Source: Roseovarius indicus (GTDB taxonomy: Bacteria > Pseudomonadota > Alphaproteobacteria > Rhodobacterales > Rhodobacteraceae). Taken from it: a DNA stretch of 64,000 bases. A program made the translations under genes and the position numbers. Below the pieces are notes generated by a model, which saw only the letters and a program-made list of their open reading frames with translations, was not told the DNA's origin and did not search any database. Positions 8,648 to 21,436 of this stretch are shown here, in pieces; positions within the stretch are counted from its first letter, which is position 1; each line of letters opens with the position of its first letter. The stretch covers positions 4,464,001-4,528,000 of the forward strand of contig NZ_CP031598.1 of the NCBI RefSeq assembly GCF_008728195.1, in the 5' to 3' direction.

Positions 8648-11600
8648 ATGGTTGATAAACGAGTAAATGCGAACGGAAGCGGGGACATAGCGATCGTCGG
8701 CATGGCACTGAAGGTGCCGGGCGCGCTAACTCTTTCCGATTACTGGAAAAATCTCTCCGCCGGCACCGAGAGCATCGAGCGGCTGGACGAGGAGTCCCTG
8801 AAGGCCGCCGGCGAACGCCCCGACCTCATTTCCGACCGCAACTACGTCCCCGCCACCGCCCGCCTCGACGGCTACGACCAGTTCGACGCCGAGTTCTTCG
8901 GCTTCGGCCCCAAAGACGCCGCCATCCTCGACCCGCAACACCGCAAGTTCCTCGAAGTGGCGTGGGAAGCGATGGAGCAGTCAGGCCACTTCCCGGGCCG
9001 TAAAACAAGGGATATCGGCGTTTTCGCGGGCTGCGGCATGGGCAGCTATTTCTACTTCAACATCTGCTCCAACCCCGACCTCGTCGACGACGTGGGCATG
9101 TTCCTCCTGCGCCATACCGGCAACGACAAGGACTTCATGACCACCCGCGTCAGCCACGTGTTCGACCTCAAGGGGCCCAGCGTCAACATCCAGACCGCCT
9201 GCTCCACCTCGCTGGTCGCCGTCCACTACGCCTGCGAGGCCCTGCGCTCGGGCCAATGCGACATGGCGCTCGCCGGCGGCTCGACCATCGAACTGCCCCA
9301 GGGCCGCGGTTACCTCTTCAAGGAAAACGAAATTCTCTCCCCCGACGGCCACTGCCACGCCTTCGACCACCGCGCCAAGGGCACCGTCTTCGGCAGCGGC
9401 GCGGGCGTGGTGGCGCTGCGCCGGCTTGAGGATGCCATCGCCGATGGCGACCATATCTGGGCCGTGGTGAAAGGCTCCGCCATCAACAACGACGGCGCCG
9501 CCAAGGCCGGCTACCTCGCCCCCAGCGTCGACGGGCAGGCCGCCGCCGTCTCCCGCGCCATCGACACCGCCGGCGTCTCCGCCGACTCCATCGGCTATGT
9601 CGAATGCCACGGCACCGGCACCTATCTCGGTGACCCGATCGAGGTCGCCGCGCTGACCGAGGCCTACCGGAAAACCACAGACAAATCAGGCTTCTGCCGC
9701 ATCGGCTCGGTCAAAACCAATATCGGCCACCTCGACACCGCCGCCGGCGTGGCCTCGCTCATCAAGACCAGCCTCGCACTGCATCACAAGGCGATGCCGC
9801 CCAGCCTGAGCTTCGAGAAGCCCAACCCCACGATCGATTTCGAAACCAGCCCGTTCCGCGTGAACGACAGCCTCACGCAATGGCCCGAAGGCCCCACACC
9901 CCGCCGCGCCGGGGTCAACTCGCTCGGCGTCGGCGGGACCAACGCCCATGCCATCCTCGAGGAAGCGCCCGAACGCGCCGCCTCGGAAGAAGGCGACTGG
10001 CCCTTCCACGTGCTCTGCGTTTCCGGCAAGGGCAAAGCCGCCCTCGACGCCAACACCAAGGCCCTCGCCGCCCACCTCCGCGCCCATCCCGAGCAACCGC
10101 TCGAAGACGTGGCGCACACCCTGAAAACCGGCCGCCAGGCCTTCGACGACCGCCGCGTCGTCGTCGCCGAAACCCACGAGGAAGCGGCCGCCCTGCTGGA
10201 AGAGGGCAACCCCCACCGCGTCTTCACCCATAAAAAGCTGGGCGAGAAACCCGACACCGTCTTCATGTTCCCCGGTGGCGGCGCGCAATACGCCGGCATG
10301 GCCCGCGACCTCTACGAGACCGAGCCGGAATTCGCCGAATGGATGGATCGCGGCCTCGATCACCTCTCGGGCAAGCTCGACTACGATATCCGCGCCATCT
10401 GGCTCCCCGAGCCGGGCGACATGGACGCCGCCAACGAGACCCTCAAGAAGCCCTCGGTCCAGCTTCCGCTGATCATGATCGTCGAATTCGCGCTGGCGAA
10501 GCTCTGGATCTCCTGGGGCATCAAGCCCGCCGCCCTGATCGGGCACTCCATGGGCGAGAATACCGCCGCCGCTCTGTCCGGCGTCATGAGCTTCGAGAAC
10601 TGCATCGACCTCGTCCTCCTGCGCGGGCGCCTCTTCGACACGGTCGCCCCCGGCGGCATGCTCAGCGTCTCGCTGCCCGCATCGCAGGTGCAGGAGATCA
10701 TCGGCGACACCCTCGATATCGCCTCCATCAACGCTCCCGACCTCTGCGCCGTCACCGGCCCGCAGGATCGGCTCGACCGGCTTCAGGCCGAGCTTGAAGC
10801 GAAAGACATCGACTGCCAGCGCATCAACATCGACATCGCGGCCCATTCCCGCATGCTCGACCCGATCCTGCCCGAGTTCCGCGCCTTCCTGCAAAGCCTC
10901 GACCTGCAGGCGCCCGAAATCCCCTTCATTTCCAACCGCACGGGCGATTGGATCACCGAAGACGAGGCCACCGACCCCGACTACTGGACAGGCCAGCTAC
11001 GCAACTGCGTCCACTTCGCCGACGGCATCACCACCCTCGCCGCGAAACGCGACCGCGTGTTTTTCGAGGTCGGCCCCGGCCGCGCCCTCAGCTCGCTCGC
11101 GCAGATGAGCGACGCCGTGGAGCCCGGCCAGGTTCTCAGCGCCCTGCGCCACCCCGACGACGCCATCGCCGACGACAAATTCCTCCTTGGCGTGATCGGC
11201 CGCTTCTGGGCCACCGGCATCGAGGCCGATTGGAGCCAGATCTGGGGCGAGGCCCGGCGCAACCACGTGATCCTGCCCACCTACGCCTTCCAGACCAGCC
11301 GCTATTTCATCGAACCCGGCAAGGCCCGCCACGCAGACGCAGCCCCCGACCTGACCCGAAGCGACGATATCGCCGAGTGGGGCTTCCGCCCCGTCTGGCA
11401 GCCCCGCTATGCCGACTGTGACGCCGAGACCCTGACCAATTGCGGCGCCGAAAAGCCGCAACAATGGCTCATCTTCGCCGATGACGCGGGCCTCGCCGAC
11501 AGCGCCGCCGCCCGGCTGACCGCCGCCGGCCACACCGTCACCACGGTCCGCCCCGGCGACAGCTTCGCCCGCCTCGCCGACGACAGCTACCGCCTCGCCC

Positions 11601-20705: not shown

Positions 20706-21436
20706 GCATGCACACACCGATCCTGTCGTCGGATGCTCTCGAGCAGGACATCCTGACACTCTTCATGCCGGTGGTCTCGGTGGCCGTAACCGACCCCGCG
20801 ACCGAGCACGAGGCACTCTTCGACGACGAGGCCCCGACCGTCGCGAAAGCCACCGACAAGCGCCGGCGCGAATTCTCGGCCGGACGCGCGGCCGCGCGTC
20901 GGGCGATGCACCAGATGGGCCTGCCCGCCATGCCCCTGCCCGCCGACGACACCCGCGCCCCGGTCTGGCCCGACGACGTCACCGGCAGTATCAGCCATAA
21001 CGACCAGGTCTGCATCGCCGTCGTGGCCGATGCCCGCAGCGTGCCCGCCATCGGCATCGACATCGAAGAAGCCCGCCCGCTCGAACCCGAGCTCTTCCCC
21101 GATATCTGCACCCTGCCCGAACGCGCCTGGCTTTCCAGCCAGCCCGAGCAGGACCGCGGGATGCTGGCCAAGCTGATCTTCAGCGCCAAGGAATGCACCT
21201 ACAAGTGCCAGTTCACCCTCAGCCGTACCTTCCTTGAATTCCACGACCTCGAAATCACCGCCGATCGCGATTGCGGCCAGTTCGAAGCCACCTTCCTGCG
21301 CACCGTCCCCGGCTTCGCCAGTGGCGCGCGGCTCTACGGGCGCTATGTCGTGACGCAGGGCCACATCATAACCGCCATCTCCGCCGAACGGCACACCACC
21401 CCCGCCGTGCAGGAACGGCGCGTGTCCTTCTGGTGA
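20702..21436 (+). CDS. 4'-phosphopantetheinyl transferase (EntD/Sfp type)
   Basis: The 244-residue protein has the three PPTase regions: the basic RRREFSAGRAAARRAM segment, SISHNDQVCIAVV, the Mg-binding IGIDIEEARPL (Asp120, Glu122) and FSAKECTYKCQF near residue 160. It transfers 4'-phosphopantetheine from CoA to the carrier serines, here most obviously Ser1803 of the PKS and Ser1458 of the NRPS. The ATG at 20702 overlaps the NRPS stop as ATGA, so synthesis is coupled to its targets. A dedicated PPTase in the transcript supports the view that PKS and NRPS form a working, self-sufficient biosynthetic cassette. Confidence 0.92.
   Translation: MSMHTPILSSDALEQDILTLFMPVVSVAVTDPATEHEALFDDEAPTVAKATDKRRREFSAGRAAARRAMHQMGLPAMPLPADDTRAPVWPDDVTGSISHNDQVCIAVVADARSVPAIGIDIEEARPLEPELFPDICTLPERAWLSSQPEQDRGMLAKLIFSAKECTYKCQFTLSRTFLEFHDLEITADRDCGQFEATFLRTVPGFASGARLYGRYVVTQGHIITAISAERHTTPAVQERRVSFW

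Follow-up and report, generated by a model that had tools for sequence, protein, structure and literature searches.

The four genes described here form a collinear chain on the forward strand and encode, in this order, a type I polyketide synthase (PKS), a family GT2 glycosyltransferase (GT), a nonribosomal peptide synthetase (NRPS) and an Sfp-type 4'-phosphopantetheinyl transferase (PPTase). They are set in a flippase-type exopolysaccharide (EPS) locus of Roseovarius indicus, within a stretch of 64,000 nucleotides (contig NZ_CP031598.1, positions 4,464,001 to 4,528,000) that will hereafter be designated as the window and whose own numbering is used throughout. The comparison of sequences strongly supports the view that this cassette is part of EPS biology. 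It is, in our judgement, probable that it represents an assembly line dedicated to the EPS, for which it would make an acyl group composed of an N-formylated, probably hydroxylated, glycine and a C2 unit; the coupling to the EPS appears well supported by the gene neighbourhoods, and the structure of the product and its attachment to the EPS are what we infer.

The PKS gene (8648..15082; 2144 amino acids) is followed, after a gap of 5 bp, by the GT gene (15088..16101), and the junctions of the latter with the NRPS gene (16098..20705; 1535 amino acids) and of the NRPS gene with the PPTase gene (20702..21436) are both ATGA overlaps. The assignments are based on Pfam and conserved catalytic residues for the PKS, Pfam for the GT, Pfam/NCBIfam and residue conservation for the NRPS, and the Pfam models 4PPT_N and ACPS for the PPTase. 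The genes, their order, the gap and both overlaps had been reported in an earlier reading of the same DNA made from its letters only (the sequence-only reading) and are borne out by the coordinates; the cassette is thus real and the original observation confirmed. The closest named relatives of the NRPS carry the label Roseovarius; the host genome measures 6.17 Mb in five contigs.

Concerning the genomic context, the best 80 of 541 named loci were inspected, nine of which were left out of the gene-order count and 16 of the EPS count, their flanks being too short; EPS neighbours were sought by homology to the proteins of the window and to three EPS proteins from Shimia, with six genes counted as the EPS core. 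The four genes occur all together in 69 of the remaining 71 loci—the exceptions being L060, where the PPTase was not seen, and L102, where the PKS match is in pieces—with the PPTase present in 70 and the GT positioned between the PKS and the NRPS in all 71. Every one of the 64 loci with wide flanks contains at least one core EPS gene, 60 of them at least two and 53 at least three. A further sample covers 36 regions, six distant ones of which were kept apart and 30, from genomes of the order, counted; these 30 genomes were spaced down the score-ordered list of NRPS matches, and at least four repeat named loci. The full set of four genes was found in 28 of them (the PPTase was not seen in G216 and the GT lies elsewhere in G155), with at least one core EPS gene in all 30 and at least three in 25. 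As controls, 20 stretches of 20 kb were taken at round coordinates, one per genome, from 20 of these 30 genomes; none contains a core EPS gene (0/20), these stretches being somewhat short, since most of the named loci span 25 to 27 kb and most of the 30 further ones up to 40 kb. Chance co-location is ruled out by the conservation over about 100 loci and the empty controls. The sequence-only reading had itself pointed to a cassette lying mostly away from EPS genes in other genomes as the finding that would speak against it; this was checked and the reverse was found.

The EPS genes surround the cassette in several different arrangements. In one of them, gt2a-wecG-wzy precede the cassette and sgnh-sec-gt2b-gt4-wzx-wzc follow it; in another, the cassette is located between wzx and wzc. 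The cassette, or else the NRPS/PKS pair, also accompanies EPS genes on plasmids (L206-L209) ranging from about 150 to 514 kb, and plasmid records from Parasedimentitalea, Shinella, Aminobacter and Paracoccus show EPS neighbours under the names given by NCBI itself. In two of these genera, Shinella and Aminobacter, the PKS and NRPS genes are divergent and the GT gene lies outside the interval between them; the description of the cassette as self-contained was therefore slightly too strong. It should also be noted that in the EPS locus of Paracoccus liaowanqingii a second NRPS gene (L209:1-1614) lies directly upstream of a WecB/TagA/CpsF gene, and that a record labelled as the actinobacterium Nocardioides marinus (L074) shows the cassette and the EPS gene order typical of alphaproteobacteria; the latter record is probably mislabelled or contaminated.

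The evolutionary trees, calculated with FastTree on trimmed alignments, place the betaproteobacterium Hydrogenophaga as one clade within the alphaproteobacterial orthologues for both the NRPS (seven Hydrogenophaga sequences) and the PKS (five), the nearest neighbours of this clade differing between the two trees. The patristic distances in the two trees correlate with r = 0.93 over 6105 pairs, which are non-independent. We read this nesting and this correlation as suggesting that the cassette has been transferred as a unit. One of the Hydrogenophaga loci (L096) contains WecG, a polyprenyl glycosylphosphotransferase scoring over its cut-off and an SGNH homologue. Two of them have an extra gene of about 2,000 amino acids between the cassette and the SGNH gene (L092:18744-24755 and L096:18119-24046), the one in L096 resembling a fatty acyl-AMP ligase plus an NRPS module, so that the betaproteobacterial form of the cassette might attach another acyl group.

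Two neighbours of the cassette, both on the forward strand, deserve attention here. The first (6850..8292) is a polytopic membrane protein with eight hydrophobic segments; the sequence-only reading had called it a Wzy-like polymerase, and whereas the segments and the company of EPS genes are in favour of this, no family in Pfam or NCBIfam matches it, so that it is Wzy-like by position. The second (21463..22419) is a secreted or membrane-tethered SGNH-fold protein, esterase/acyltransferase-like, without a match in Pfam or NCBIfam, but exhibiting both the fold and the Ser, Gly, Asn and Asp/His residues that we take to be the motif of the SGNH superfamily. When an NRPS match at E = 0 is taken to stand for the cassette—the PKS, GT and PPTase genes having been checked only in the fetched loci—160 of 390 genomes of the order are positive and 24 more give weaker matches within a limit of 1e-60; at E up to 1e-100, the NRPS was found in 17 of 398 genomes of the phylum and 5 of 289 of the class. 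Of the 160 positive genomes, 159 contain the wzy-like gene and 100 the SGNH gene; among the 230 others, the numbers are 40 (Fisher 2e-69) and none (Fisher 5e-51), respectively, both tests treating the genomes as unrelated. In at least 15 of these 100 genomes the SGNH gene is apart from the NRPS, either on another contig (7) or at least 20 kb off (8); some of these distant genes may still lie within one large EPS region.

As for the NRPS, it consists of a formyltransferase (Formyl_trans N and C; 16311-16964), an adenylation domain split into two parts (17739-18374 and 19509-20300) by an inserted LLM monooxygenase (Bac_luciferase; 18423-19475) and a PCP (PP-binding; 20388-20582), all recognized by Pfam and the monooxygenase also by NCBIfam. 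The stretch between the formyltransferase and the adenylation domain has no Pfam match, and the lack of the condensation motif HHxxxDG, already remarked in the sequence-only reading, agrees with the absence of a condensation domain among the Pfam matches of the NRPS. The formyltransferase, N-terminal to the adenylation domain, has N89, H91 and D127—presumably its catalytic triad—invariant in all 112 NRPS orthologues, and the PCP serine is conserved in 111, the remaining one having a gap; by sequence, the protein corresponds to a formyltransferase-initiated NRPS of the LgrA type. The adenylation pocket reads DILQ[LMFYVC]GM[IV]W in 112/112 orthologues as well as in eight distant relatives, in which the formyltransferase site shows one gap and one changed residue (G704 and G669). 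The pocket resembles DILQLGLIW, which we take to be the glycine code, although no paper giving that code was found in the open-licence literature. It also aligns at Q278, G301 and W331 with the adenylation domain of 5u89, to our understanding the glycine-specific one of DhbF, and differs from that of LgrA module 2, presumably glycine-specific too. The adenylation domain is thus predicted to activate glycine. The LLM domain scores 457.5 bits on TIGR04020 (MupA/Atu3671 LLM in NRPS), over the cut-off of 244.45, a family name on account of which a siderophore cluster of the Atu3671 type was also considered. Among solved structures, PuwE is the one closest to the LLM domain (6ket, E 1.5e-94); the LLM domains of this subfamily are, according to the available text of one source, mainly hydroxylases, with some Baeyer-Villiger cases (PMC8739492). 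One NRPS orthologue from the order sample (G077:C3:87274-91890) is broken by a TGA.

The PKS exhibits, according to Pfam, the domains KS (8684-9814), AT (10259-11077), KR (12146-12733), DH (12812-13660; two models), ACP (13973-14164) and TE (from 14309). The Cys/His/His of the KS are kept in 104 of 105 PKS orthologues, the remaining one having a gap, while the AT serine (GHSxG) and the arginine of its LRG motif, the latter being presumably carboxylate-binding, the Ser/Tyr/Asn of the KR, the phosphopantetheine serine of the ACP and the Ser/Asp/His of the TE are all found in 105/105. With the adenylation domain, the carrier serines and the KS and AT residues in place, the cassette has, at the sequence level, what characterizes a hybrid NRPS-PKS line. 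The NCBIfam label NF045894 PKS_plus_SDR was considered for the PKS and rejected, its 991 bits being under the curated cut-off of 1740.

The small formylated and oxidized amino-acid/polyketide moiety envisaged in the sequence-only reading is thus supported, the domains agreeing with the conserved residues and with the glycine-type pocket. In the mechanism that we propose, the PPTase would arm both carrier domains; the NRPS, judging by its domain families, would activate glycine, N-formylate it and oxidize it on the PCP, the LLM oxidation being probably an alpha-hydroxylation. The formylated glycine unit would then be passed to the PKS and extended by one malonyl-derived C2 unit, the beta-keto group of which would be reduced, and perhaps dehydrated, to a beta-hydroxy or enoyl form, before the TE would release or transfer the short acyl group. 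The least certain steps are those that would follow: the cytoplasmic attachment of the acyl group to the lipid-linked repeat unit, through an amino or a hydroxyl function; the addition of a sugar to that unit by the cassette GT, possibly on the acyl hydroxyl; the flipping of the unit by Wzx and its polymerization by the Wzy-like protein; and, where present, the editing or moving of the acyl group outside the cell by the secreted SGNH protein. A wider proposal can be put forward as a tentative one, somewhat less likely to hold than to fail: some two-fifths of the species sampled from the order (160/390) may make a polysaccharide-polyketide-peptide polymer with a C4 acyl group based on formyl-hydroxyglycine in each EPS repeat, possibly in the backbone, polymerized by the wzy-like protein and, in the majority of these species, edited outside the cell by the SGNH protein, so that a common "cryptic antibiotic" cluster would be a matrix module that spreads.

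Several points, in addition to the use of the NRPS as a proxy and of related genomes in the Fisher tests, weigh against a dedicated acylation line for the EPS. The DH retains its His and Asp, yet its second motif reads DxxxG in 105/105 orthologues instead of the usual DxxxQ/H; with Gly replacing Gln/His throughout, dehydration is uncertain, and the statement of the sequence-only reading that all the catalytic residues it looked for are present, except HHxxxDG, holds for the KS, AT, KR, ACP, TE and formyltransferase, but not for this motif. TE domains normally hydrolyse or cyclize, so the one found here would have to transfer its product directly or an extra acyltransferase would be needed. An N-acyl alpha-hydroxyglycine would be unusual in a polysaccharide, we know of no chemistry for the product of the cassette, and no EPS structure from a cassette-bearing strain was found in the open-licence literature. 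The SGNH gene is lacking in 60 of the 160 positive genomes. Finally, for four of the deep relatives of the NRPS (G417, G681, G704 and G669; 43-45% identity), the same search with the proteins of the window gave no EPS matches. The identity of the deep relatives is 43-45% in most and 36% in one; G417 has a Wzc-like protein, below the cut-off, immediately after its PKS, sugar-nucleotide and SGNH genes seem by eye to be near in G704, and no EPS-like genes were recognized by eye in G681 and G669. Since the distant relatives are thus not all in EPS loci, the tie to the EPS belongs to the orthologous group and not to the whole NRPS family. G681, G669 and G704 share the glycine-type pocket outside recognized EPS loci; they may make free metabolites and might thereby reveal the chemistry.

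A free product has also to be considered: the cassette could make a small molecule, diffusible or glycosylated (signal, metallophore or antibiotic), and its genes would reside in the EPS locus because biofilms make use of both. The architecture is indeed that of a small hybrid biosynthetic gene cluster, the TE could release a free acid, and clusters fitting the cassette are listed as cryptic secondary-metabolite clusters in the available texts of three sources (PMC4062626, PMC10584327, PMC8273931). A type I secretion ATPase and an HlyD-type adaptor are encoded near the PKS in Shinella, and a TolC-family gene lies beside the PKS in Aminobacter; these could be there for EPS-acting proteins or for the export of a small molecule. 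In the window, by contrast, the flippase and the Wzz-type protein are the only transport-related family matches within the scanned genes between 701 and 30895, the co-location with EPS genes survives rearrangement, residence on plasmids and the move to a betaproteobacterium, and, over 390 genomes, the distribution of the wzy-like and SGNH genes follows that of the NRPS. All these make a diffusible product rather unlikely.

A special case of the acylation of the EPS, the probability of which is counted within that given above and which we consider on its own unlikely, is that the acyl group is part of the backbone, with the next sugar added to its hydroxyl by the cassette GT. The position of this GT between the PKS and the NRPS in all 71 named loci of the gene-order count would be in accordance with it, and so would the KR residues, invariant beside a DH motif altered throughout, since a beta-hydroxyl is to be expected if the DH is weak. 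On the other hand, the GT occupies a different position in Shinella, Aminobacter and G155, and its family does not predict the acceptor.

A role as an anchor or primer has been proposed for RkpA and WcbR, the PKSs from capsule loci, and the cassette PKS is likewise mono-modular and situated in a polysaccharide locus. It is nevertheless quite improbable that the product of the cassette anchors or primes the polysaccharide as a lipid-like or acyl moiety: with a flippase and a polyprenyl sugar-phosphate starter enzyme already encoded in the locus, another primer is not needed, and both the NRPS-loaded starter and the TE at the C terminus point to one short round of extension, even if iteration is possible. 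The type I PKSs RkpA and WcbR belong to the capsular polysaccharide (KPS) clusters of rhizobia and Burkholderia, where their genes accompany those for polysaccharide synthesis and export, a setting shared by the cassette PKS, but the available text on them mentions no NRPS, formyltransferase or LLM partner (PMC3908369). The cassette differs also in its C-terminal TE and in the flippase/Wzz-type EPS locus, Kps genes not having been searched for; it nevertheless represents assembly-line enzymes in a polysaccharide locus, a kind already known from RkpA/WcbR.

With regard to other known systems, the A-MOx modules of the MtaG/MelG type, like the TIGR04020 LLM family, have the LLM inserted in a glycine-type adenylation domain; the cassette differs from these modules in its N-terminal formyltransferase, its partner PKS with a TE, its EPS locus and in that no condensation domain was found. 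The linear gramicidin synthetase LgrA, which is among the PDB matches of both the formyltransferase and the adenylation domains, shares the F-A-PCP initiation with the formyltransferase before the adenylation domain and the PCP, whereas the cassette NRPS has a glycine-type pocket, an inserted LLM and a chain handed to a PKS. Oxazolomycin and conglobatin are oxazole polyketides starting with N-formylglycine, in which F-A(Gly)-PCP feeds a PKS; in contrast to these, no cyclodehydratase was recognized in the cassette, an LLM is present and there is one PKS module. Acyl groups of rhizobial EPS come from simple donors and not from a PKS/NRPS line. Such non-carbohydrate groups on the repeat units, which the acyl group proposed here would resemble, include acetyl, pyruvyl, succinyl and 3-hydroxybutanoyl ones, according to the available text (PMC5748678).

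At the level of titles and abstracts in the open-licence literature searched, no description of a PKS-NRPS line in a flippase-type EPS locus was found. Clusters fitting the cassette have nevertheless been published, their identity with it being judged by locus tags, lengths and sources, with a sequence match for the CP157 plasmid only. Among Roseibaca and its relatives, hybrid NRPS-like/T1PKS clusters, present in 18 of the 37 species studied, are given as the most frequent of the new types of interest; in Roseibaca domitiana, gene lengths of 4,527 and 6,333 nt and a spacing of about 1 kb between the genes agree with the cassette NRPS, GT and PKS; the cluster was read as one for a likely bioactive compound, and "polysaccharide" and "glycosyl" occur nowhere in the available main text (PMC10584327). 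An NRPS match was also obtained in Ruegeria pomeroyi. Phaeobacter inhibens T5 has the PKS Inhi_1972 and the NRPS Inhi_1974 one gene apart (PMC4062626), and Paracoccus marcusii CP157 a hybrid NRPS/PKS cluster on pCP157_02 (PMC8273931), fitted by the P. marcusii plasmid of our search (225,058 bp, source Cancer pagurus), which matches from residue 328. The available texts of these three sources state no tie to the EPS.

Genome-mining papers count the fitting hybrid cluster among those likely to yield bioactive compounds; if the cassette serves the EPS, such counts, and hunts for a diffusible product, would be misdirected, and this common "cryptic" cluster would be reassigned to the EPS. Roseobacters are abundant surface and algal colonizers whose EPS is chemically poorly known. 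Should the proposal hold, a polysaccharide with an unusual acyl group would have to be sought in the matrix, assembly-line enzymology would extend to EPS repeat units, and the four-gene module, together with the matching wzy-like and SGNH proteins, would provide a set of tools.

The remaining genes of the locus characterize it, by Pfam, as a flippase-type (Wzx/Wzy) one, owing to the flippase, the polyprenyl sugar transferase and the Wzz-type protein. Upstream of the wzy-like gene there are a glycosyltransferase-like protein (3807..4916, forward; PF13524 over cut-off), a GT2 (4930..5898, forward; Pfam) and a WecG/TagA/CpsF glycosyltransferase (5895..6695, reverse; PF03808). Downstream, the SGNH gene is followed by a secreted protein (22416..24107, forward) with a predicted barrel structure (pLDDT 88.6), the top Foldseek matches of which are glycoside hydrolases such as xylanase, galactanase and mannanase; because their TM-scores are low, the protein is described just as glycoside-hydrolase-like. 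Then come a GT2 (24120..24962, forward) and a GT4 glycosyltransferase (24996..26258, reverse), both by Pfam, the Wzx/MOP flippase (26383..27750, forward; PF13440, with NCBIfam PRK10459 below cut-off), the Wzz-type chain-length protein (27755..29017, reverse; PF02706 over cut-off), an EPS tyrosine autokinase-like protein (29088..30059, reverse; TIGR03018 and TIGR01007, both below cut-offs) and a polyprenyl-phosphate sugar transferase, predicted to initiate the repeat unit (30116..30895, reverse; PF02397, with TIGR03022/TIGR03025 below cut-offs). At the other end, beside the EPS genes, a GNAT acyltransferase (Acetyltransf_6; 701-1924) and an asparagine-synthase-like protein weakly similar to XrtA-system amidotransferases (1932-3563) are encoded.

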